DNA from: Verrucomicrobiales bacterium
Lineage (GTDB): Bacteria > Verrucomicrobiota > Verrucomicrobiia > Limisphaerales > UBA11320
NCBI GenBank assembly: GCA_016793885.1
Contig: JAEUHE010000193.1
Span: 1-64,000, forward strand
DNA length: 64,000 nucleotides
Direction: 5' to 3'
The notes beneath the pieces were generated by a model. That model searched no databases, was not told where the DNA came from, and saw only the letters and a list, made by a program, of their open reading frames with translations. Both the position numbers and the translations under genes were made by a program. Within the stretch, counting starts at the first letter, position 1, and the number at the start of each line of letters is the position of its first letter. Of this stretch, positions 16,111-28,811 are shown piece by piece.

Positions 16111-18525
16111 CTACCTCCTTCCGCGGTTGCTCTCACTCCATCGGCGCGCCGTCGTTTCGACGTCTTCCCTCCATGCCTGATAAGCGGGCTCACGACGGAA
16201 CAACTCATACGGATCGCCTTCGCCGACATGCTGGGGGGCGAAACCAACGAATTGTCGTTCGGATGCCGCTTCGTCGATCTCCACGTCGCTCGCGCTCACG
16301 CGCAGGCTCGAGCGAATGCGGGCGTGCTGGAATAATTCCACCTCGGAAAGGGTATGGCTGCCCGGCTTGAGTTGCATCCGCTCATTCCAGACCGATTCGG
16401 AATCGATTTGTCGCCCCCGCCGGTCGGCCAGAAAAACGCCCTTGCCGGCGTAGACCACCTTCGTCTCCGTCCAGCGCAGCGCCGCTGGCCATTCCCCCGG
16501 GACGTAGTCGGTGAGCCGGAGGAGGGCTCCATCGCTGCGATCGATGAGAGTGCTGTCCCAGATTGCCACGACCCGACTCAAGTTCTTGGCGTCGTCGAGA
16601 TCGAGCAGGTTGCGGGTTACGATGACGCTGTTCGAGGTGCGGAACTCGGCCTCGCTTCCGGGGTCGGGGCGAAGGGTGTAGGCGCGGTGAATGATAAAGA
16701 GGCAGTTCTCGGTGTGGACCTTGATTGGGCCCCTCGGCGCTCCCCAGATGCCGACCGCGCTGCCCTGTCGGGCCAGCACCAGACAGTTTCGCAGCAGCGC
16801 GGAGCTGCCGGCGGAAAGGACGATCAGAGGTCGATGCGTCCGGGATCCGTCGTCCGAGGGAACCAGCTTTCCGGCCCGCAACAACATCGTCTCCCCTTGA
16901 GACTGAGCCCGGAGCACGCGGCAGTTCAACAGTGAGACCGGGGCACCCTCCGCTGAGATCAGCGGGAAGATGTTGATCCGATTGGAGCGCCGAAGCAGGG
17001 TGACTCCCTCAATGGTCAAAGGGGCGTCGGCCAGGATGAACGGTTGGCTTTCGTTGGTCGCCACCAGCACCGGAACATATCGATCGGCGGCCCGCAACGT
17101 CATCGACTTTGTGCCCACCCGAAACGAATCAATGACCTTTTCGCCCGAGAACCGCAGCTCGACGGTCTCCCCGTCACGGCAAGCTTGGACCGCATCCGGC
17201 AAGGTGGCGAACGTTCCCCATCGGCCCCGGATGAAGAACTCGTGTCCGTTGCGCTCGCAGAGGCGTGCGTTGATGAACGTCGTGCGGCCGGTGAGCTCGA
17301 GGCCGGCCAGAGCGGAGCCCGCGACCAGAGACAGGCCGGCCAGCACGGCGGCGGCCCGACCTACCCATACCGCGATTCGACGGCCTGGCTGCAGCACCAC
17401 GCGCAAGGCATGGGTCACTTCATCGGCAGAGGAGAAACGATCCTCCGGCCTTCGGGCCGCCAACCGATCGATGATCGCGCCCAGATGGGCCGGGATCTCG
17501 GGCGCTCGTTCACGAATGGGTTTCCGGTTTCCTTGGGCGGCGAGCTGCAGGACCTCTGCGGAAGAGTCCCCCTCGTAGAGTGTGGTGCCGGCGGCGAGTC
17601 GATGCAGCAAGGCGCCCAAGGCGAAGAGATCACTTCGCGCGTCCATCGGTTCACCTCGTGCTTGCTCGGGGGCCATGTAGTGGGGGGTTCCGGCAATCGA
17701 CCGATGGGTGGGTTCCGAGGCGGGCCCGTGGATAGGTTTGGCCAGCCCGAAGTCCGCGAGGCGCACCCGTTCCAGCCCCTGCTCGAGCAGGACGTTGGAG
17801 GGTTTGATATCCCGATGGAGGATGCCGACGGAGTGCATGGCGGCCAGCGCCTGAGCCAGCTGCATTCCCACGCGCGCCACCTGCTCCCAGGTCAGTCGGG
17901 GAGTCTTGGTCAAGAGGTCGGCGAGAGTCCCTTCCCCATGGAAGGGCATGACCAGGTAGGACAACCCCTTTTCGGTCCCGGCGTGGTAGACCGTGACGAT
18001 GTGGTCATGGTGCATGGCGGCCACAGCCCGGGCTTCCGCGAGAAACCGATCGGAAAGCCGGTCTTCTCCCCTTTGGGGATAGAGGACCTTGATGGCCACG
18101 GTGCGATGCAGCGTCCGGTCTCGTGCCTTCAACACGAGGCCCATGCCACCGCTGCCTGCCAGGTCGAGGATTTCGTAGCCAGCGAACACTCCGAGTGAAC
18201 CTGCGGAGAGGGGTGGATCGAGTCGCCGCAAAACCTGGGAGTTCGAAGCGTCGTCGTCGCAACCGCAGGACTGATCTTGGCTTATTACCGCCTGGCGGAT
18301 GAGCGTGTCGAGAACCGGAGATCCCGGCGGCGCTTGCGCTAGGGGCGAGGCGCTTGGCAGGTCGCCTAGCAGACCCAGCAGCTGGCCCCGGGTCAGGCTT
18401 TCCAGCGACTCGGCACAGGACCGGCACCCGTGGAGGTGCAGCTCGATCGACTCCAGGGCGGGTGTGGCGAGGCTGCCGCGAGCAAAGGCCTCGAGTGTTT
18501 CTGGGGAAGGACAGGGGTTACTCAT
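16111..18525 (-). CDS. Membrane Ser/Thr protein kinase with N-terminal zinc anti-sigma-like motif
   Basis: 804 aa. Residues 1-50 hold an H-x3-C-x2-C motif (H30, C34, C37) typical of zinc-binding anti-sigma (ZAS) heads. A Hanks-type kinase domain follows: GSGGMG 124-129, ATP lysine K146, HRDIKPSN 237-244, DFG 258-260 and MAPE. One membrane helix spans about 385-409. The roughly 390-residue extracytoplasmic part looks beta-rich, possibly beta-helical. The gene overlaps the upstream sigma-factor gene by 8 nt, so the two are translated as a pair. By analogy with sigma/kinase pairs known from planctomycetes and the PknT/EcfP system, the kinase probably controls the sigma factor; this is inference. 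Confidence 0.85.
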   Translation of the reverse strand: MSNPCPSPETLEAFARGSLATPALESIELHLHGCRSCAESLESLTRGQLLGLLGDLPSASPLAQAPPGSPVLDTLIRQAVISQDQSCGCDDDASNSQVLRRLDPPLSAGSLGVFAGYEILDLAGSGGMGLVLKARDRTLHRTVAIKVLYPQRGEDRLSDRFLAEARAVAAMHHDHIVTVYHAGTEKGLSYLVMPFHGEGTLADLLTKTPRLTWEQVARVGMQLAQALAAMHSVGILHRDIKPSNVLLEQGLERVRLADFGLAKPIHGPASEPTHRSIAGTPHYMAPEQARGEPMDARSDLFALGALLHRLAAGTTLYEGDSSAEVLQLAAQGNRKPIRERAPEIPAHLGAIIDRLAARRPEDRFSSADEVTHALRVVLQPGRRIAVWVGRAAAVLAGLSLVAGSALAGLELTGRTTFINARLCERNGHEFFIRGRWGTFATLPDAVQACRDGETVELRFSGEKVIDSFRVGTKSMTLRAADRYVPVLVATNESQPFILADAPLTIEGVTLLRRSNRINIFPLISAEGAPVSLLNCRVLRAQSQGETMLLRAGKLVPSDDGSRTHRPLIVLSAGSSALLRNCLVLARQGSAVGIWGAPRGPIKVHTENCLFIIHRAYTLRPDPGSEAEFRTSNSVIVTRNLLDLDDAKNLSRVVAIWDSTLIDRSDGALLRLTDYVPGEWPAALRWTETKVVYAGKGVFLADRRGRQIDSESVWNERMQLKPGSHTLSEVELFQHARIRSSLRVSASDVEIDEAASERQFVGFAPQHVGEGDPYELFRREPAYQAWREDVETTARRWSESNRGRR

Positions 18526-19138
18526 GTGCCAAACCCTCGAAGAGAGGGGACCCTTCTTCCACGGTTTGCACGAGCTGTCGTATGCGCAGGGTCACCCGGG
18601 AGCGGGCGATGTACAGTGCGTTGAGGGTCAAGCCAAGTTCTTGGGCGACAGTCTCGGCCGTCTCGTCCAGAATGGCGGTTCGCCAGAAGGCATCCCAGGT
18701 TTGGGGTTTGAACTCGGTCTGGATTTGTCCGGCCGCCCAACGCACCAGATTGAGCTGGTACTCACGCCGCCAGGTTTCTTCCAGTCGGCTCTCGGCCTCG
18801 GTTTCAGCCAGCTGTTGCAGTGTTGTTTCGCCCGCGGGGCGGGGATGTCGTGCCTGGGTGGCGAAAAAGTTGTTCAGTTTGCTGCGGACAACGGTGAACA
18901 GCCAGTTGCGAAAGGAGCTGCGCTGCGGGTCGTACTGAAAGCGAGAAATAGCCCCGGCCACCGCCTTCAGCACCTCTTGCGAGACATCGCCGGCATCGGT
19001 TTCGGAGAGACCCCGGCCGCGGCAGAACGCGAAGATAAGCGGCGTGTAGATCCCGACAAACTGAGACCATGCCGCTTCATCGCCCGCGTCACGCAGGCGG
19101 AGCAGCAAGGAGGGTCGAGTTCGCATCTCCGCAGCCAT
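18518..19138 (-). CDS. ECF-type RNA polymerase sigma factor, partner of the adjacent kinase
   Basis: 206 aa. Region sigma-2 lies at about residues 25-95 (IFAFCRGRGLSETDAGDVSQEV, then FRNWLFTVVRSKLNNF). Region sigma-4 lies at about 140-200, with the helix-turn-helix in ETVAQELGLTLNALYIARSRV. It belongs to the ECF class of planctomycetes and verrucomicrobia that travels with Ser/Thr kinases. The stop overlaps the kinase start by 8 nt. It is divergent from a second sigma/kinase pair 195 bp away. Its targets are unknown; the neighbouring exported giants are obvious candidates. Confidence 0.85.
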   Translation of the reverse strand: MAAEMRTRPSLLLRLRDAGDEAAWSQFVGIYTPLIFAFCRGRGLSETDAGDVSQEVLKAVAGAISRFQYDPQRSSFRNWLFTVVRSKLNNFFATQARHPRPAGETTLQQLAETEAESRLEETWRREYQLNLVRWAAGQIQTEFKPQTWDAFWRTAILDETAETVAQELGLTLNALYIARSRVTLRIRQLVQTVEEGSPLFEGLAHE

Positions 19139-19333: not shown

Positions 19334-20086
19334 ATGTCACAGGAGACCAACCATCGGGAGCCGAGCTGGGATTCGGCGGGAATGTTCCAGACGACGCACT
19401 GGAGCGCGGTCCTGGCGGCGGGTCGATCTGAAACCCCGCAGGCGGCCGTCGCCCTGGAGGCGCTTTGCCGGGTGTACTGGTATCCGCTTTATGCTTACGT
19501 TCGACGACAGGGCCACAGTGCGCACGATGCTCAGGACCTGACTCAGGAATTCTTTTCGCGTCTCCTGCAGAAGAACTACCTTCAACTGGCGGACCAGGAG
19601 CGAGGCCGCTTTCGCTCGTTCCTGCTTAAGTCACTTCAAAATTTTCTCGTTAACGAATGGGTGCGAGGCCAGGCTCAGAAGCGTGGGGGAGGGGCTCCGC
19701 TCCTGCCCTTGGACGAGGCGGTTGCCGAGCGGCTCTATCAGCAGGAGTCGACGAACCGCACATCTGCCGAGACCTTGTTCGACAAGCGGTGGGCCATGAC
19801 CTTGCTCGAGCGGGCACTCCAGCAGTTACAGGCGGACTATGCCGCGGCCGGCAAGGGGGAGCTATTCCAGCAGCTTCAGTCGCTGCTGCTGAACGAGGGC
19901 TCCGCGGAATGCTATCGAACCCTCGGTGGCCAGGTCGGGCTGAGCGAGGGTGCGGTGAAGGTAGCCGTTCACCGGCTGCGCCATCGGTTTAAGGAGGCGG
20001 TGCGATCCGAGGTCGCCCAGACGGTGGCGACGGCGGGCGAGGTGGATGAGGAGTTGCGCTGCTTGATGACCGCGATGATTGAATAA
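19334..20086 (+). CDS. ECF-type sigma factor (TTHWS group), partner of the downstream kinase
   Basis: 250 aa. The protein opens with the FQTTHWSAVL motif that marks a planctomycete/verrucomicrobial ECF group. Sigma-2 follows (YWYPLYAYVRRQGHSAHDAQDLTQEFF), then sigma-4 with a helix-turn-helix near residues 190-215 (GGQVGLSEGAVKVAVHRLR). It is followed after 64 bp by a Ser/Thr kinase on the same strand. It differs strongly from the divergent sigma factor at 18.5-19.1 kb, so the two modules are not a recent duplication. Confidence 0.85.
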   Translation: MSQETNHREPSWDSAGMFQTTHWSAVLAAGRSETPQAAVALEALCRVYWYPLYAYVRRQGHSAHDAQDLTQEFFSRLLQKNYLQLADQERGRFRSFLLKSLQNFLVNEWVRGQAQKRGGGAPLLPLDEAVAERLYQQESTNRTSAETLFDKRWAMTLLERALQQLQADYAAAGKGELFQQLQSLLLNEGSAECYRTLGGQVGLSEGAVKVAVHRLRHRFKEAVRSEVAQTVATAGEVDEELRCLMTAMIE

Positions 20087-20150: not shown

Positions 20151-22475
20151 ATGACGCAGTTTTCTTTAGATGCAATTTCCCGATGTCAGCGCTGCAACGC
20201 GTCGCTGGTCGGGCAGTCGGTGGGCGGTTTGTGCGCCAACTGCCTGCTGAAGCTCGCGTTCCAAAGCACTCCATTCGAGTCAGTTGAGCGGCATGGCACG
20301 CTCTCCGATCCCGGGGCTCCCCCGCCGGCTGCGGCTGCCGGTGCGGAACCCGTGCGCTCGCGTCCATTTGGGGACTTTGAGTTGCTGGAATTGGTGGGAA
20401 GGGGAGGGATGGGGGTGGTTTACAAGGCCTACCAGCGGAGCCTCAAACGAATGGTGGCTCTCAAGATGGTTTCGAATCACCAGGATGCATCCTACGACAC
20501 GGTCGCGAGGTTTAGCATTGAGGCCGCCGCGACGGCCAAGCTGACTCATCCCAATATCGTGCCCATCTATCAGATCGGCGATCTTGAGGGACAGCCGTTC
20601 TTCAGCATGAAGCTGGTCAATGGGACCAGCTTGGCCAGGAGGCGGGCCGATTTCGGGCTGGTGGACTCTGCCAAGAAGAGCATTTCCAAAGAGTCGTCCC
20701 GGCAGCGTCAGGAAGTGATCGCCATGCTTCTGGCCAAGGTCGCCCGAGCCGTTCATTACGCGCATCAGCACGGTATTGTTCACCGCGACCTTAAGCCCAA
20801 CAACATTCTGATCGATGCCGAGGGCGAACCTCATCTGACGGACTTCGGGATCGCCAAGCTCTTGGAGAGCGACGATGCGTTGACCGGCACCAATGATGTT
20901 CTGGGCACTCCGGCCTATATGGCTCCCGAGCAGGCCTCCGGCAAAGCGGTCTCGTTCGCGGCCGACATCTACAGTCTGGGAGCCATCCTGTATGAGCTGC
21001 TCACGGGGCGAGTGCCGTTTCAGGGTAAGACCCCGCTGGACACCTTGCGGAAGGTAGCCGAGGAGGAACCGTTACCGCCCGTGACGCTGAACGGGGCGGC
21101 CGATGTGGAATTGGCGGCCATTTGTCTGAAGTGCTTGGAGAAGGACCGGTCACTCCGCTACGAGTCCGCACTGAGTCTGGCGGAAGATTTGGAACGGTGG
21201 ACGCGTGGCGAATCGGTGCAGGCCAAGCAAGCGGGGCCGTGGGTGAGGGCCTTCCGGTGGACGCGCCGCAATCCGGTCGGAGCCACCCTGATTGTTACGC
21301 TCTGCGCGGGCCTGATGGGAGCATTGGGGCTGTTAACGATGGTCAGTGCGGAGAAGGACAAGACCGCGGCGGTGCTCAAGGATGTTGAACGGGCCGGGCA
21401 AACGAATGCACAGCTGCTTTCCCTCACCGTGTCGATGCTCCACGAGCAGCTCGAGGGTTTGTGGCTCAGCACGGATCGTCGAGTTCTCCATATTTCCTCC
21501 GAACAATTGGCGGCGCTTTCTGGATTTCCTATAGCGACCGTGGCGAAGGGATCTTCGGTCGAGCGACTCGCTTTTGGGCTGGCCGCAAACGAGAGCCCGG
21601 TATCGGACTCTCAGAAGTATTCCTTGCTGCTTGCCCATCTGGAGCGCGAGTTGACGGAGCGGCGAGGGCGGCCGGTTCGAATCGATCTAAAGATCTTCAA
21701 GTTCAAAGAGGATCGTACCGCGGCTTTATTGACGAACGGAGTTCACTTTGCTCGCATGGGTGATATCTACTATTTGCGCACCAAGGAGAAGCATCCGGAG
21801 TTAGACGCGCTGGTCTTGCCGCGGTCGAAGCTGAAGACCGCAGTCTTTTTTACTCGCACCAACAGCGGCATCAAGAGCTTGGTAGATTTGAAGGGTCGCA
21901 GGCTTGCCTTCGGTGACTCGGTCTCAGGCATTACCTTTTGGGGCCAGGCCAAGCTGGCGGAGGCGGGCATTACCGGCTCCGACTTGAAGGAATACGTGTG
22001 CCTCGAGAGCCGCTCCGAATTCATCGAGGAAGTTCATGAGTTGGGCTACGAAGCGGCGGTTCGAAGGCGTGGCTGGCTACATAGTACTGCCGATGTGATC
22101 GAAGATGTTGTTCGGGGGCGATACGATGCCGGGGTCACCAGTTTGCGTGGGTTTGAAAACCATAAAAACCGAGGGCTTGTTCAGATTGGTGACTCCCACT
22201 TTGAGAGGAGCCCAAATCCTTGGGTCGGGAGCCGGCACTTGTCCGTGGAACTGGCCCGGGATCTGACTGCTGTGTTGACCAGGCTCGAGAACGCCCCGTT
22301 TCTGCTCCTTGTACCGGGCCGACCGTCAGGGTTCGAGCCGATCACGCCCTTGTCCTTCAGTGCGGTCCGCAAAGCGATGAGTCGGATGGAGGGGCTGTTT
22401 CCTCTCATCGATTATTCTTCTGCTGACGCTGGAACTCGCCCGGAGCATCGCCCTCCGCTTCCGTCAGCCAATTAG
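20151..22475 (+). CDS. Membrane Ser/Thr protein kinase fused to a PhnD-like periplasmic binding domain
   Basis: The ATG at 20151 is preceded by GGGAAG at 11-bp spacing and is preferred over a GTG at 20127; the product is 774 aa. A zinc-ribbon-like head (C12, C15, C28, C31) leads into a Hanks kinase: GRGGMG 83-88, K105, HRDLKPNN 211-218, DFG 231-233. A membrane helix at about 374-398 and a short helical linker follow. Residues about 470-745 match the PhnD/phosphate-phosphonate binding family (SLVDLKGRRLAFGDS, GVTSLRGFE). The outside domain probably binds a ligand and sets kinase activity toward the sigma factor encoded upstream. The PhnD family also binds non-phosphorus ligands, so the ligand is unknown. 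Confidence 0.85.
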   Translation: MTQFSLDAISRCQRCNASLVGQSVGGLCANCLLKLAFQSTPFESVERHGTLSDPGAPPPAAAAGAEPVRSRPFGDFELLELVGRGGMGVVYKAYQRSLKRMVALKMVSNHQDASYDTVARFSIEAAATAKLTHPNIVPIYQIGDLEGQPFFSMKLVNGTSLARRRADFGLVDSAKKSISKESSRQRQEVIAMLLAKVARAVHYAHQHGIVHRDLKPNNILIDAEGEPHLTDFGIAKLLESDDALTGTNDVLGTPAYMAPEQASGKAVSFAADIYSLGAILYELLTGRVPFQGKTPLDTLRKVAEEEPLPPVTLNGAADVELAAICLKCLEKDRSLRYESALSLAEDLERWTRGESVQAKQAGPWVRAFRWTRRNPVGATLIVTLCAGLMGALGLLTMVSAEKDKTAAVLKDVERAGQTNAQLLSLTVSMLHEQLEGLWLSTDRRVLHISSEQLAALSGFPIATVAKGSSVERLAFGLAANESPVSDSQKYSLLLAHLERELTERRGRPVRIDLKIFKFKEDRTAALLTNGVHFARMGDIYYLRTKEKHPELDALVLPRSKLKTAVFFTRTNSGIKSLVDLKGRRLAFGDSVSGITFWGQAKLAEAGITGSDLKEYVCLESRSEFIEEVHELGYEAAVRRRGWLHSTADVIEDVVRGRYDAGVTSLRGFENHKNRGLVQIGDSHFERSPNPWVGSRHLSVELARDLTAVLTRLENAPFLLLVPGRPSGFEPITPLSFSAVRKAMSRMEGLFPLIDYSSADAGTRPEHRPPLPSAN

Positions 22476-22486
22476 TGGAGCCAACA

Positions 22487-24427
22487 ATGAAAATCTCCCG
22501 AACAATCTGGACCACCTTGGCCTTCGGTGCGGTCTTGTTGCTCCCGGTGAATTACGGTCGCTGCCAACTTGCCATCACGGAAGTGATGGCGTCCGCGTCG
22601 ACAAACCTGGGCTCCATCAAGGTTCCTCAAGGGCCGGACTTCTGGGAGTTGACCAACTTCGGCAGCGAGCCAGCTGACCTCTCCGACTTCCGGTTTAGTG
22701 ACAGTGTAGGGCTCACTGATGTCTTTGAGGCTGAAGACCGAGCCATGTTTGCGGGGCTCCAGCTCGGAGCGGGGAGCTCGATTCTCTTTTTTCAGGCAAT
22801 TACCAACGTTTGCACCAACGCGACTCAGTTCCGCGCCTGGTGGGGGGAGACGAACATTCCGGCGGAGGTTCCGATTATTCCTTACACGCGACGTGGTTTC
22901 GGCCGCCTGAAAGATGCGGTTCAGGTCTGGAGAGTGGATGAGTCTGGCACGAATGAAGTGGATCGCGTGGAGCTTCTGGAGGCTCGCTCAGGCTTCAGCC
23001 TGGTTTACGATACCAACACCGGTTTCATGGATACGCTGAGCGAGGTTGGAGTCAATCGAGCCATCAAGGCGGCTCAAACGGATGATGTGGGCTCTCCCGG
23101 GACGGCCGGCGCAGCGGTGCCCGTGGGCTTTGCGCTTCAGCCTCAGAGCCTGACGGTGGATGCCGGGGCTCCTGCCGTGCTGAACGTTCGAACCCTAGGG
23201 CTGCCCCGGCCCCTGGTTCAATGGCAGTTTGAGGGGAGCGACCTTGCGGGCGAAACCAGGGATCGGATCGTCCTCACCAACGCCGAGCCGCAGCAGGCGG
23301 GACGCTATACGGCTCGGATCTTCAACGGGCTTACGTCGTCGACCAGCGAGGTGGCGGTGGTCGCGGTCAATACGATCCCCAGCGCACCGACGATTCTCAG
23401 CGCTCCCGTGGATCTGGTGGTGACCCCCTGGCAGACCGCCATTTTTCAGATAGCGGTCCGGGGTTACCCCCTGCCGGTCGTTCAATGGCGATTCGAAGGA
23501 CAAGATATTCCTGGCGAAACCGGTTCTGTGCTTCGCATTCCGCAAGCCGATGAGTTCGTTTCCGGCGTCTACTCCGTGACTGTCTCCAATCAGTTAGGTG
23601 TCGCTGTTGCTTCCGCCTCGCTGAGCGTGAGACCCGAGCCCAAGCTGTTCATCACGGAGATGATGGGTGGGCGTTCGACCAACTCGCTGGTGGTGGGCCG
23701 ATCGGACTGGTGGGAACTCACTAACTTCGACACCGACTCGGTCAACCTTCGAGGGTACCGGTTCGATGACTTTCCCCGTGTGCTCGAGGGCGCCTGGGTT
23801 ATCACCAATGACCTGGTGGTACGCCCGGGAGAGTCGGTGGTTTTCCTTCAGAATATGACACCGGAATTCTTCACCGAATGGTGGGGCGAAGAGAATTTGC
23901 CAGCGGGTCTGCAGTTTGTTCGTTATGCGGGTAACGGGATCAACGCTCACTATGATTCCATCGCGCTGTGGAATCCCACCGCATCGGACGCTGACGACTT
24001 TATCACACGGTCTGAGTATGTGCACTTGGATAAAAACTATGTTCCGATCCAGGGATCGAGCCTCAGTTTTTGGTGCGACGGCCGCATCGAGGAAGGGCGG
24101 ATGAGCCAGGTGGGGGAGTGCGGTGCCATCCGCGCCGCCAAGTCGGCTGATGTGGCGTCTCCCGGCTACTACACCAATCACCCTCCGCGGCAAGTGGCGC
24201 CTCGTCTGGTGACCATCCTCCACACGGAAGGCGCGATCCAGCTCACCTACACCGCCCAGGCCGGGACGACTTATGAGTGGCTGGCGAGCGGGGATCTGAG
24301 CGCAGGCAAGTGGACGGTGATCGCTCGGCAGACGGCCGCCGGTGATCGGATCGAGTTCAAGGAGTCGACGGCTCGGGGCACGAGCTGGCGGTTTTATACC
24401 GCGCGGATCGCCCTTTCATCCCCATGA
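22487..24427 (+). CDS. Exported lamin-tail / Ig-like domain protein
   Basis: The ATG at 22487 has GGAG six bases upstream, and the gene starts 12 bp after the kinase stop. 646 aa: signal peptide (about residues 1-29), a lamin-tail domain (about 30-190, LAITEVMASAS), two Ig-like domains (each with QWxFEGxD), and a second lamin-tail domain (about 390-560, LFITEMMGGRSTNS). The two LTD units are clearly duplicates. It ends in an ATGA overlap with the pseudopilin gene. It is probably a surface or secreted protein in the same transcript as the sigma/kinase pair. Confidence 0.8.
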   Translation: MKISRTIWTTLAFGAVLLLPVNYGRCQLAITEVMASASTNLGSIKVPQGPDFWELTNFGSEPADLSDFRFSDSVGLTDVFEAEDRAMFAGLQLGAGSSILFFQAITNVCTNATQFRAWWGETNIPAEVPIIPYTRRGFGRLKDAVQVWRVDESGTNEVDRVELLEARSGFSLVYDTNTGFMDTLSEVGVNRAIKAAQTDDVGSPGTAGAAVPVGFALQPQSLTVDAGAPAVLNVRTLGLPRPLVQWQFEGSDLAGETRDRIVLTNAEPQQAGRYTARIFNGLTSSTSEVAVVAVNTIPSAPTILSAPVDLVVTPWQTAIFQIAVRGYPLPVVQWRFEGQDIPGETGSVLRIPQADEFVSGVYSVTVSNQLGVAVASASLSVRPEPKLFITEMMGGRSTNSLVVGRSDWWELTNFDTDSVNLRGYRFDDFPRVLEGAWVITNDLVVRPGESVVFLQNMTPEFFTEWWGEENLPAGLQFVRYAGNGINAHYDSIALWNPTASDADDFITRSEYVHLDKNYVPIQGSSLSFWCDGRIEEGRMSQVGECGAIRAAKSADVASPGYYTNHPPRQVAPRLVTILHTEGAIQLTYTAQAGTTYEWLASGDLSAGKWTVIARQTAAGDRIEFKESTARGTSWRFYTARIALSSP

Positions 24428-25263
24428 CTTCGATGCCCACCCCCTGCTCCAGAATCGCCCGCCACCACCGCACGCAGGCACTCGCCCAGCGATCTGCGAC
24501 TTGCTCGTGCCTCGCCTTCACTCTCATCGAATTGCTCGTGGTGGTGGCCGTTATTGGCGTTTTGTCCGCGATGATCCTGCCGGCGCTGGGCAAGGCCAAG
24601 GCCACCGCGCGCAAAGCGTCCTGCCTTAGCCAGCTCAAGCAGTGGAACTTCGCCTTGATAATGTTTGCTCACGACAACGAGGACTTCATTCCGCGTGAGA
24701 GCTTCATTCCGGGCGGCACCACCATCAATCTCTGGGCCCAAGTGCGCAACCCGCTGGCCCATGATGTGTGGTACAACACCCTTCCCGACTATGCCCACTC
24801 ACGGCGAGCCTCCGCCTATGCGCCGGAGGCGGTGCGCGCCGACTTCTACAAACCGGGGAATCTGTTCCACTGCCCTAGCGCTACTTTTCCCAAGGGATCT
24901 GGCGTCAGTGAGATTGCCTATTTCTCCTATGCCATGAATTCGAAGCTGATCCTGAATCCCTTTCGGAGCATCAAGCTCAGCTCCGTTCTGGAACCGGCGT
25001 CCACCGTGACGTTTCTCGATAACCGGCTCGAAAACGATCCCAAGGTCGATGAGAAGCAGGAGAAGGACAATCTCGGTCAACCCAGCGCCTATGCGAGCCG
25101 CTTTGTGACGCGCCACGGACAGAGCGGAGTGCTGGCCTTTGCCGACGGTCACGTGGACCAGTTGTCGGGCCCGGAGGTGGTTCACGATGGTTGGGCCGCG
25201 TTTCCGCAAACCCGCGTGATCTGGACGGTTGATCCCGGAGTCGATCCGAATCGGACGAATTGA
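24424..25263 (+). CDS. Type II secretion-like pseudopilin (DUF1559-style)
   Basis: 279 aa. The prepilin cleavage/methylation segment is at residues 28-55 ([19 protein letters not shown]); cleavage would occur just before the Phe. The C-terminus has the H-X9-DG motif (HGQSGVLAFADGH, about residues 231-243) of the large pseudopilin family expanded in planctomycetes and verrucomicrobia. It overlaps the preceding gene by 4 nt, suggesting co-translation with that LTD protein. Exact roles of these many pseudopilins are not known. Confidence 0.85.
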   Translation: MTSMPTPCSRIARHHRTQALAQRSATCSCLAFTLIELLVVVAVIGVLSAMILPALGKAKATARKASCLSQLKQWNFALIMFAHDNEDFIPRESFIPGGTTINLWAQVRNPLAHDVWYNTLPDYAHSRRASAYAPEAVRADFYKPGNLFHCPSATFPKGSGVSEIAYFSYAMNSKLILNPFRSIKLSSVLEPASTVTFLDNRLENDPKVDEKQEKDNLGQPSAYASRFVTRHGQSGVLAFADGHVDQLSGPEVVHDGWAAFPQTRVIWTVDPGVDPNRTN

Positions 25264-25381: not shown

Positions 25382-27808
25382 ATGAATCCAATTCGATCCC
25401 AATTCTCTCTTCTCTGCGGTCTGGCTTCCCTCGCGCTCGGTCTGACAGCCAGCGCCGATCCAGTGCTGCTCAACGAAATCTACGTCAACCCTCCGGGGAA
25501 CACGCTGCCCCATGAGTTCATCGAGATCAAGGGCCCGCCCCTCCAGTCGCTGGATGGTTACTTTTTGCTGGCTGTCCCTGGCAACGCGGGAGTTTCCGGC
25601 CGGGCCGATCTTGTGCTCGATTTGAAGGGCGTGGAACTGGGCGCGAACGGGCTCTTGATCGTCAAGGTCTCGGCCACGAATGGGTTTCTCGTGCCCCCCG
25701 CCACGCGCGTGGTGGAGAATCCACGGTTGATTGATACGGCTGTCTCCCCGCTGAATAACAACACGCTCTCGGTCCTGCTCGTGCAGAGCACGACGAGTCC
25801 GGTCGAGGGAACTGACTACGACTCCAATGATGACGGGGTCTTTGATGTGGCCCCCCTGGATACCGCGACAATCGTCGATGCGGTGGCGATTCGCCAGCTG
25901 CCAGCAGATCCCGTGTATGGCGGGGTTCGGGTTCCCAATGTCGGAAACGATAACCGCCCGGAGGCGGTGGTCCGCCTGGCTGGGGATCTCCGGCCGAATA
26001 ATCCGGAGGCATGGTTCGCGGGCCGCATGAATGGCTCGGGTCTCACCGTGGCCTTCAATGCCCAGGTGACGCCGAATTATCCCGAGGGGGCCACCCTCAC
26101 CCCGGGTAAGGACAATGTGGTTTTCAACGCGTTTCGTTTGGTGCAGTCGGGCAGCACCACCTATGTCGATGAGGATGGGGTCCTAGACAGTTATACACTC
26201 GCCTTGGGTGCAACACCCGCCGCGGGACAGGTAACGGTCAAGATCGCTGCCGACGCCCAGGTGCTGGTGAGTTTGGATGGCGTGCAGTTCGTTTCAGAAA
26301 CGAATCTGGTGTTCACCACCGCGAACGCCTTGGTGCCTCAGGTGATCACGGTTCGGGCGATGGACGATGCGCTGGTCGAGTTGGGTCGCCTCCATCCAGG
26401 GACCATCAGCCACAGCATCGCGGCCACGGATGATGCGGAAACCTTTCCCGTCACTTTGGCCAGCGTAGGGCTGTTGGTGAACATTTTTGACAATGAGTCT
26501 CCGTTCCCGATCGTTTTGCCATCCCAGGAAACCCCCGCCAGCTTTGCCCCTGACGATTGCGATGACGCGGCCTTCTGGATTCACCCTACTGATCCGGCGA
26601 AGAGCTTGCTGCTCACCACGAAGAAGCTGGGCGGGGCGGTGGTCTTCGATCCCCTTCTCAACGAAGTGCAGCGCTTCGCGCCTGAAACCAACGGGGCCAT
26701 CCGCTTGAACAATGTGGATGTGCTCTATGGCTTCCCCCTCAATGGAGGGAAGGTGGATCTGGCGGTCTTCTCGGATCGCATCAATGATACTCTCTACATC
26801 TATCGAATCGATGCCAACGTCGTGCGTGATCCGTTGACCCTGATTTCAGCGGATCTCACCACTCACATCTTCCCGGATTCGGTTGTGGCCGGGGATACGG
26901 CCTATGGTCTGTGTCTCTACACCAGCGTGCTCACGGGACGGCCCTATGCCTTTGTGAGCCGGAGCGCCAAAGGCGAGGTGGCTCAGCTGGAGTTGTATGA
27001 TGCGGGAGGTGGGAAGGTAGGGTGGCGCGCTGTTCGCCGCATTCAGTTGCCGGAGAACATTCAGGCGGAGGGCATTGTCGCTGACCAGGAGTTGGGCTGG
27101 GTCTACTTTGCGCAGGAGAAGGTTGGCCTGTGGAAATATTCGGCGGAGCCCACCCGGGGCGGTCTGGGGGGGACACTCGTGCAGAAGATCAAGCCGGCCG
27201 GGGCGATTCTCTCCACGGACATCGAGGGGCTCTGCATCTACTATGGCGCCAATGGTGGAGGCTACCTGGTGGTTTCGAGCCAGGGTGACAACAACTTCGC
27301 GGTATTCTCGCGCGATCCCGCGAATACCTACTTGGGTAGTTTCGCCATCGGTGCCAACCAGGCACTCGGTATCGACCAAGTCACCACCTGCGATGGCGCG
27401 GAGGTATGTCCCATTGCGTTGCCTGGCTATCCGCAGGGAGTGCTTATCGTTCAGGACGGCGAGAATGACGGCTCAGTGAGTGTTCGGAACACCAACTTTA
27501 AACTCGTCCCGTGGGAGAGTGTTGCGCGGGTCTTCCTCCCGGTCCTGGATGTGACTCCCGCAGCGTATGATCCTCGTCGGCCGACCAGTCGGATTCAACC
27601 GCGGTTTGATCAGGTGACTCGACTCGAAAATGGCGATCTTCAAATCGCACTTAGCGGAGCTTTGGGATCGGTCCATCGCTTGGAGTCCTCCGAGGATCTC
27701 AGCCGCTGGGATCTGGTCGACACCTTGGAATTCACCACCCCGATGGTGGAGCCGGTAGTTCGCGTGCCCGCGGGTGCGCGCAAGTTCTACCGCTTGGTCG
27801 CGCCCTAA
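25382..27808 (+). CDS. Exported lamin-tail protein with beta-propeller phytase domain
   Basis: I start at the ATG at 25382, directly before a signal peptide (FSLLCGLASLALGLTASA), giving 808 aa. Domains: lamin-tail-like region (about 25-200), a Calx-beta-like region (about 230-370), then a beta-propeller phytase (about 380-700) with DDCDDAAFWIHP, LNNVDVLYGF and AEGIVADQELGWVYFAQE. These match the calcium-dependent 3-phytase family, which removes phosphate from inositol hexakisphosphate. A C-terminal segment ends in RKFYRLV. The start of the frame further upstream (25229) lacks a signal peptide. An extracellular phosphorus-scavenging role is likely. Confidence 0.85.
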   Translation: MNPIRSQFSLLCGLASLALGLTASADPVLLNEIYVNPPGNTLPHEFIEIKGPPLQSLDGYFLLAVPGNAGVSGRADLVLDLKGVELGANGLLIVKVSATNGFLVPPATRVVENPRLIDTAVSPLNNNTLSVLLVQSTTSPVEGTDYDSNDDGVFDVAPLDTATIVDAVAIRQLPADPVYGGVRVPNVGNDNRPEAVVRLAGDLRPNNPEAWFAGRMNGSGLTVAFNAQVTPNYPEGATLTPGKDNVVFNAFRLVQSGSTTYVDEDGVLDSYTLALGATPAAGQVTVKIAADAQVLVSLDGVQFVSETNLVFTTANALVPQVITVRAMDDALVELGRLHPGTISHSIAATDDAETFPVTLASVGLLVNIFDNESPFPIVLPSQETPASFAPDDCDDAAFWIHPTDPAKSLLLTTKKLGGAVVFDPLLNEVQRFAPETNGAIRLNNVDVLYGFPLNGGKVDLAVFSDRINDTLYIYRIDANVVRDPLTLISADLTTHIFPDSVVAGDTAYGLCLYTSVLTGRPYAFVSRSAKGEVAQLELYDAGGGKVGWRAVRRIQLPENIQAEGIVADQELGWVYFAQEKVGLWKYSAEPTRGGLGGTLVQKIKPAGAILSTDIEGLCIYYGANGGGYLVVSSQGDNNFAVFSRDPANTYLGSFAIGANQALGIDQVTTCDGAEVCPIALPGYPQGVLIVQDGENDGSVSVRNTNFKLVPWESVARVFLPVLDVTPAAYDPRRPTSRIQPRFDQVTRLENGDLQIALSGALGSVHRLESSEDLSRWDLVDTLEFTTPMVEPVVRVPAGARKFYRLVAP

Positions 27809-28195: not shown

Positions 28196-28259
28196 CACCC
28201 TCGGTTCGTCGCAAAATCTTGGCTTGTCGTGGCTCTCGGGAGCGGGGAAGATGGCTATT

Positions 28260-28811
28260 ATGCAACCTAGTGAAGTTGTCTCCGAGATTTTCGATGTCTT
28301 CCATGAGCATGGGGACGGGATGTATGGAGAGCGCGTGACGGAGCAGCAGCACGCCCTGCAGTGTGCTGCCTTGGCGCAGAAGGCCGGGGAGCCGCCGGCC
28401 CTGATCGCCGCCTGTTTGCTTCACGATTACGGTCACTTGGTTCATGGGTTGGGCGAAGATATCGCCGATCGAGGAGTCGATGCTCGCCACGAGCGAGTCG
28501 GAGCCAACCGTCTGGAGGCTTGGTTCCCTGCCGCCGTCGTTGAACCGGTGCGGCATCACGCGACCGCTAAGCGCTATCTCTGTTGGAAAGATCGCCAATA
28601 TTTCCAGGGGCTGTCGGCCGCCTCCCAGAAAAGCCTGGCTTTGCAGGGCGGACCGATGACCGAATCCGAGGCTCGGGATTTTGAGGCGCATCCGCACTTC
28701 GCCAGCGCGGTGAAGCTCCGTCAGTATGACGATCAGGCAAAGGTGCCGGGCATGATCACTCCCGCGTTGGAGGACTTCCGCGACCTGTTGGAATCTCTGG
28801 TTCGGTTCTAG
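28260..28811 (+). CDS. PhnZ-like HD-domain mixed-valent di-iron oxygenase
   Basis: I prefer the ATG at 28260, nine bases after GGGGAAG (an ATG at 28251 would touch it); 183 aa. Metal ligands expected for the HD oxygenases are present in order: H31, H55-D56, H59, H77 (ARHERVG), H99/H100 and D157/D158 (RQYDDQAK). Their spacing follows PhnZ closely, as I recall its numbering. The motif YGERVTEQQHALQ carries the conserved Glu. This family oxidatively cleaves C-P bonds of hydroxy-phosphonates; relatives act on other substrates. No PhnY-type partner hydroxylase is nearby, so the phosphonate role is an inference. Confidence 0.75.
   Translation: MQPSEVVSEIFDVFHEHGDGMYGERVTEQQHALQCAALAQKAGEPPALIAACLLHDYGHLVHGLGEDIADRGVDARHERVGANRLEAWFPAAVVEPVRHHATAKRYLCWKDRQYFQGLSAASQKSLALQGGPMTESEARDFEAHPHFASAVKLRQYDDQAKVPGMITPALEDFRDLLESLVRF

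Follow-up and report, generated by a model that had tools for sequence, protein, structure and literature searches.

What does a bacterial Ser/Thr kinase sense, and what does it control, when its outer part belongs to the PhnD/PtxB family of binding proteins? The activating signals of bacterial Ser/Thr kinases are largely unknown. Here, we describe a 774-amino-acid (aa) Hanks-type kinase with a C-terminal PhnD/PtxB-family domain, encoded in a 64,000-nucleotide stretch of DNA from a Verrucomicrobiales bacterium of the Pedosphaera group (contig JAEUHE010000193.1; analysed whole and called the window below). Because structures have been solved and ligands measured for the family of its outer domain, this kinase is among the few for which the ligand question is directly testable, and its relatives, some with the pocket kept and others with it altered, provide natural built-in controls. 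Its partnership with genes for an LTD/Ig protein and a pseudopilin also hints at what one of the numerous orphan pseudopilins of these bacteria may do.

Domain architecture and topology

The protein is encoded by a stop-free open reading frame on the plus strand (positions 20151 to 22475). Reading frame, Pfam matches, motifs, and hydropathy agree on the architecture read from this DNA in an earlier note, in which a zinc-ribbon head, a Hanks kinase, a single helix, and a PhnD-family domain lie in one chain. The zinc-ribbon-like head carries two cysteine pairs (C12/C15 and C28/C31; pattern CxxC-x12-CxxC). The protein kinase domain (aa 76 to 338; 20376 to 21164, plus strand; PF00069, E value 8e-50) has every catalytic motif, namely, GRGGMGVVY (83 to 91), VALK with K105, HRDLKPNN (211 to 218, with D213), DFG (231 to 233), and APE (258 to 260). 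A single membrane helix at about aa 375 to 400 (21273 to 21350, plus strand; hydropathy up to 2.26) is followed by a neck of about aa 401 to 474 (21351 to 21572, plus strand), in which L434..W438 and S450-E451 are conserved across the fusions.

The C-terminal domain (aa 475 to 715; 21573 to 22295, plus strand) matched Phosphonate-bd in Pfam (PF12974; E value 8.6e-23, 81.4 bits against a cut-off of 27). A profile built from 14 relatives matched PtxB (5o2j) across the whole domain (E value 1.3e-23), and profile comparison placed ArrX among the nearest solved structures. AlphaFold2, given just two sequences of this domain, returned a model too poor to use (pLDDT, 41.8), so the putative two-lobed fold rests on homology. 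An Arg/Trp-rich basic segment, WVRAFRWTRRNP, precedes the helix, with no comparable cluster behind it; by the positive-inside rule, the kinase would lie in the cytoplasm and the C-terminal domain on the outer side of the membrane. The extracytoplasmic position already proposed for the PhnD-family domain is therefore likely.

Distribution and phylogeny

Kinase/PhnD fusions formed one family: of 320 genomes from the host's order, 13 carried it, with open frames of about 640 to 840 aa; the fusion of one of these genomes (G457) is broken by a frame change. In addition, the order yielded one split and one truncated case. Two loci, L103 (4583 to 6762) and L107 (6274 to 7075), have the fusion split across two frames, which could be genuine or a sequencing artefact. 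The host genome (8.7 Mb, 274 contigs) holds three fusions, namely, the window copy, L029 (C60), and L030 (C42), together with two free PhnD-like proteins: that of L044 lies by a hybrid histidine kinase and that of L045 by pst phosphate-transport genes.

A family-profile search found no kinase/PhnD fusion in 388 other genomes of the phylum. Long PhnD-bearing frames do exist elsewhere in the phylum (PF12974 search of 289 genomes); as candidate Hanks fusions they were rejected, since none of the 20 loci checked had a kinase match or motif, and two carried a histidine-kinase-like motif. Among the genomes of this phylum searched, the family is conserved and was seen in this order only. The earlier impression that binding proteins of ABC transporters are uncommon as sensor domains of Hanks kinases agrees with these sampled frames. 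In a search of genome contigs, a related locus lay on one contig only (CAMCCU010000135.1, metagenome-assembled Pedosphaera parvula), and the viral contigs searched held none. The plasmid matches listed included PhnD-like proteins of marine alphaproteobacteria (24 to 27% identity), and none of those listed spans 80% of the query. No described kinase/PhnD fusion was found in the literature searched, which argues only weakly that there is none.

The 21 fused binding domains all fell in one clade (95/89) together with one unfused domain; the sister group of this clade is four free proteins of the lineage (L044 to L047; 98/93). The unfused member directly follows a fusion that is also its nearest relative in the tree (L043, 4751 to 7922 for the two genes) and, lying beside it, is most readily explained by tandem duplication. 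Because of this duplicate, the fused domains do not make up a strict clade by themselves. The window copy is nested in starred sets of 6 and 14 fusions.

Gene cassette

The kinase gene is second in a four-gene cassette, all on the plus strand. The first gene (19334 to 20086) encodes an ECF-type sigma factor of 250 aa (PF04542, E value 6e-6; TIGR02937, E value 2.8e-8) and ends 65 bases before the kinase gene. The third (22487 to 24427), beginning 11 bases past the kinase stop, encodes a secreted LTD-Ig-Ig-LTD protein (PF00932 and PF07679), which is a conserved partner. The fourth (24424 to 25263), with a 4-base overlap onto the LTD gene, encodes a pseudopilin-like protein with an N-terminal methylation motif and H-X9-DG (GspG-like N terminus, family alignment). 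Back to back with this sigma-kinase pair, 195 bp away, lies a second ECF sigma-Ser/Thr kinase pair (16111 to 19138, minus strand), whose kinase begins with a stretch similar, at a score below cut-off, to the anti-sigma zinc domain zf-HC2 and is unrelated in its C-terminal region.

We compared the window genes with the flanks of the relatives by tblastn. The window order (sigma, kinase/PhnD, LTD, pseudopilin) recurs in L030, L031/L101, L032, and L033. At L029, the order is kinase/PhnD, LTD, pseudopilin, with sigma absent; at L035/L060 and L105, the kinase/PhnD gene stands last, after sigma, LTD, and pseudopilin; L036, L102, L103, L104, and L106 have sigma, kinase/PhnD, and pseudopilin; and at L043, the free PhnD gene is inserted between kinase/PhnD and LTD in the otherwise full order. 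A sigma gene adjoins 18 of the 21 fusions, across several families of the order. A pseudopilin gene adjoins all 13 testable members of the window copy's 14-row clade, which span several families of the order with 35 to 55% identity; the flanks examined of L039 to L042 contained none. The two paralogues, the conserved cassette, and the LTD/Ig and pseudopilin partners all go beyond the earlier note.

Only four sites in the host genome carry LTD and pseudopilin homologues of full length, and three of these adjoin its only three kinase/PhnD genes. At the fourth (C249; L121, 7342 to 10086), the LTD and pseudopilin genes form a pair without a kinase. A pseudopilin profile detected this subfamily across many of the order's genomes, and of the 19 such loci examined (L157 to L175 among the loci noted), most adjoin an LTD protein and none this kinase. 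Since the pair is widespread without the kinase, it is a wider and probably older unit, to which the sigma-kinase pair appears to have been joined in some lineages. No promoter-like motif common to the upstream regions of the cassettes and of the orphan LTD-pseudopilin pair rose above shuffled sequences (best motif in 5 sequences; shuffles reach 5).

Ligand pocket and phosphorus genes

In Te_PtxB, the ligand is held by Y55, Y100, S130, T131, S132, and H160, with D22 and Y208 as caps (Bisson et al., PMC5700983), and a His-to-Ala change in Escherichia coli PhnD (H157A) locks the protein open (PMC5700983). Pocket positions were read off an alignment with solved proteins, in which the S-T-S and His blocks are gap-free. 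At PtxB positions D22, Y55, Y100, S130, T131, S132, H160, and Y208, the corresponding residues of the window copy are N, K, K, S592, G593, I594, T646, and N, respectively, so that one of the eight tabulated ligand and cap residues is retained. The first Ser (S592) is the sole survivor of the STS-H oxyanion motif, and neither the tyrosines nor the cap residues are kept. At the T131 position (593), 19 of 21 fusions have Thr, and the window copy alone has Gly. The H160 position is His in L029, L030, L032, L101, and L038 to L041 and Thr in the window copy and L033. Both paralogues in the host genome retain the Thr and His positions, and five other fusions (L034 and L038 to L041) retain Y55 and Ser-Thr, four of them also the His.

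As aligned, the canonical phosphonate pocket of the window copy is not intact, and an intact pocket had been the earlier note's own test of its sensor reading. The backbone might still make contacts where the helix begins; the best reading is that the site is remodelled or degenerate. With the phosphonate/phosphite site remodelled or decayed, the signal for the window copy is probably not a classical phosphonate, and the reading in which it binds a phosphonate, phosphite, or phosphate is weak and not supported, most of STS-H being lost.

Two phosphorus genes stand side by side 3 and 6 kb downstream of the kinase gene, on the same strand. These encode a beta-propeller phytase (25382 to 27808, plus strand; PF02333, E value 2e-76) and a PhnZ-type HD-domain oxygenase (28251 to 28811, plus strand; TIGR03276, 208.6 bits, below the cut-off of 214.6), each the sole one found in the genome and each a possible regulon member. 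Their proximity is a suggestive phosphorus link for the window copy. As a conserved phosphorus regulon of this kinase, phnZ and phytase fail as a general rule, since the linkage is not kept in relatives: their PhnZ homologues lie in other surroundings, unlinked to the fusion, the phytase is absent from every relative tested, and the flanks examined of the two host paralogues hold no phosphorus genes. Linkage of the fusion to phosphonate genes is therefore not conserved. At L041 (737 to 4360), where the pocket is better kept, a phosphate-selective porin O/P gene begins 43 bases after the fusion. In another genome (G004; L056, 5456 to 9839), a PhnZ-like gene is directly followed by the gene for a different Ser/Thr kinase of 1,233 aa.

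Proposed mechanism and alternatives

Our best explanation, held with about as much confidence as doubt, is a receptor kinase that controls the LTD/pseudopilin unit by way of its ECF sigma factor and whose ligand site is remodelled or decayed. The outer type II binding-protein domain would sense an extracellular signal, and the neck and single helix would couple it to the cytoplasmic Hanks kinase, with domain closure or contact with a partner altering kinase activity. The kinase would then act on the sigma factor encoded just upstream, which in turn would drive the co-encoded secreted LTD/Ig protein and pseudopilin as a two-gene surface unit. Speaking for this explanation are the complete kinase motifs, the single clade of fusions, the conserved cassette with its closely spaced kinase, LTD, and pseudopilin genes, and the altered pocket. 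Counting against it are the three fusions without an adjoining sigma gene, the LTD-pseudopilin pair that usually occurs without this kinase, the search that gave no shared promoter-like motif, and the acidic residues that the sigma factor keeps in region 2.2. As to origin, we tentatively propose, with a little less confidence, a one-chain receptor class specific to this lineage, in which a single fusion joined a PhnD-family protein to a Hanks kinase. The product would then have spread with the sigma gene as a dedicated regulator of the LTD/Ig-pseudopilin unit, the pockets of the paralogues diverging for different ligands.

Neighbouring kinases are known to activate ECF sigma factors (EcfP/PknT and EcfK/PknS; PMC8999054, PMC13147305), and members of ECF43 need phosphorylation to supply the charge in region 2.2 (PMC8999054). 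The window sigma factor has DAQD in region 2.2, where acidic residues occur in 17 of 17 aligned cassette sigma factors. It therefore falls outside the intrinsically inactive ECF43 type and need not depend on phosphorylation; kinase action on it is possible, but not by the exact ECF43 route. The direct ligand-to-sigma-factor circuit envisaged earlier is plausible, and its sigma-factor link is supported by the sigma gene 65 bp upstream and by those beside most of the fusions. The acidic region 2.2 would also suit a kinase with other target proteins, tied to the sigma factor by nothing more than a common operon, the sigma factor being constitutive or otherwise regulated; the fusions that have no sigma gene and the many genomes with the LTD-pseudopilin pair and neither kinase nor sigma point the same way. 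Against this stand the adjoining sigma genes across several families of the order and the cassette itself, in which no anti-sigma factor was identified, and of the alternatives we consider it the least probable.

What the outer domain reads is the other point of dispute. It is unlikely to be a phosphonate or organophosphate sensor whose kinase-sigma pair induces phosphorus scavenging, here through the downstream phytase and PhnZ-like oxygenase. PF12974 membership, the position on the same strand of the genome's only phytase and PhnZ-like genes, the five fusions that keep Y55 and Ser-Thr, and the porin gene at L041 favour such a sensor; the single tabulated PtxB residue left in the window copy, the different placement of phnZ and the missing phytase in relatives, and the paralogue flanks do not. 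With the better kept pocket and the porin O/P gene together at L041 and the linkage unkept elsewhere, a phosphorus role is likelier in the L041 branch than for the window copy. We give equally little credence to the binding fold having become a protein-contact module that takes no small ligand and reads a surface partner, e.g., the LTD/Ig protein or pseudopilin of the cassette. Such a module would account for a window copy that lost its pocket residues and retained the fold core, for the fixed linkage to LTD and pseudopilin genes, and for the stretch ahead of the His position, which is longer in the window copy's clade than in the free proteins, but not readily for host paralogues that retain the Thr and His positions.

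Comparison with known systems

Among the known systems nearest to it is ECF43 with its partner kinases (EcfP-PknT of Vibrio parahaemolyticus and EcfK-PknS of Xanthomonas citri), where, as here, a Hanks kinase gene adjoins an ECF sigma gene (PMC8999054, PMC13147305). PknS, too, sits in the membrane and has a periplasmic region at its C terminus (PMC8999054, PMC13147305), but it has TPRs, whereas the outer domain of the window kinase is PhnD-like. ECF43 members are without DAED and have a phospho-acceptor Thr in its place; the window sigma factor has DAQD.

With the PhnD/PtxB/HtxB binding proteins (PF12974), the outer domain shares the whole-domain match to PtxB reported above and differs in being fused to a kinase, in having no transporter pairing, and in having lost most of STS-H. 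The arsenic oxyanion sensors AioX, ArrX, and ArxX also use the PhnD family in signalling and not in transport; these are free-standing and signal via a histidine kinase (PMC5908839), whereas the window domain is part of a Ser/Thr kinase. A free PhnD-like protein of the host genome itself, from the sister group of the fused domains, recalls AioX/AioS, as its gene adjoins that of a hybrid histidine kinase (L044, 3391 to 7215; HisKA, HATPase, and response regulator). It is linked to a sensor kinase gene as the fused domains are to their kinase, but with two genes, histidine kinase output, and the Y55, Ser-Thr, and His positions retained. The free protein at L046 has a similar neighbour, judged by N-terminal sequence. 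In the actinobacterial GlnH-GlnX-PknG system, a solute-binding protein controls a Ser/Thr kinase (PMC6069109, PMC9769921), as we suggest here from sequence; there, three proteins and a different binding protein are involved, compared with one chain in the window.

The system is best filed with the kinase-linked ECF systems, a known kind; what is new is that the Hanks receptor kinase has an outer domain of the PhnD family and is linked to an LTD/Ig-pseudopilin unit.
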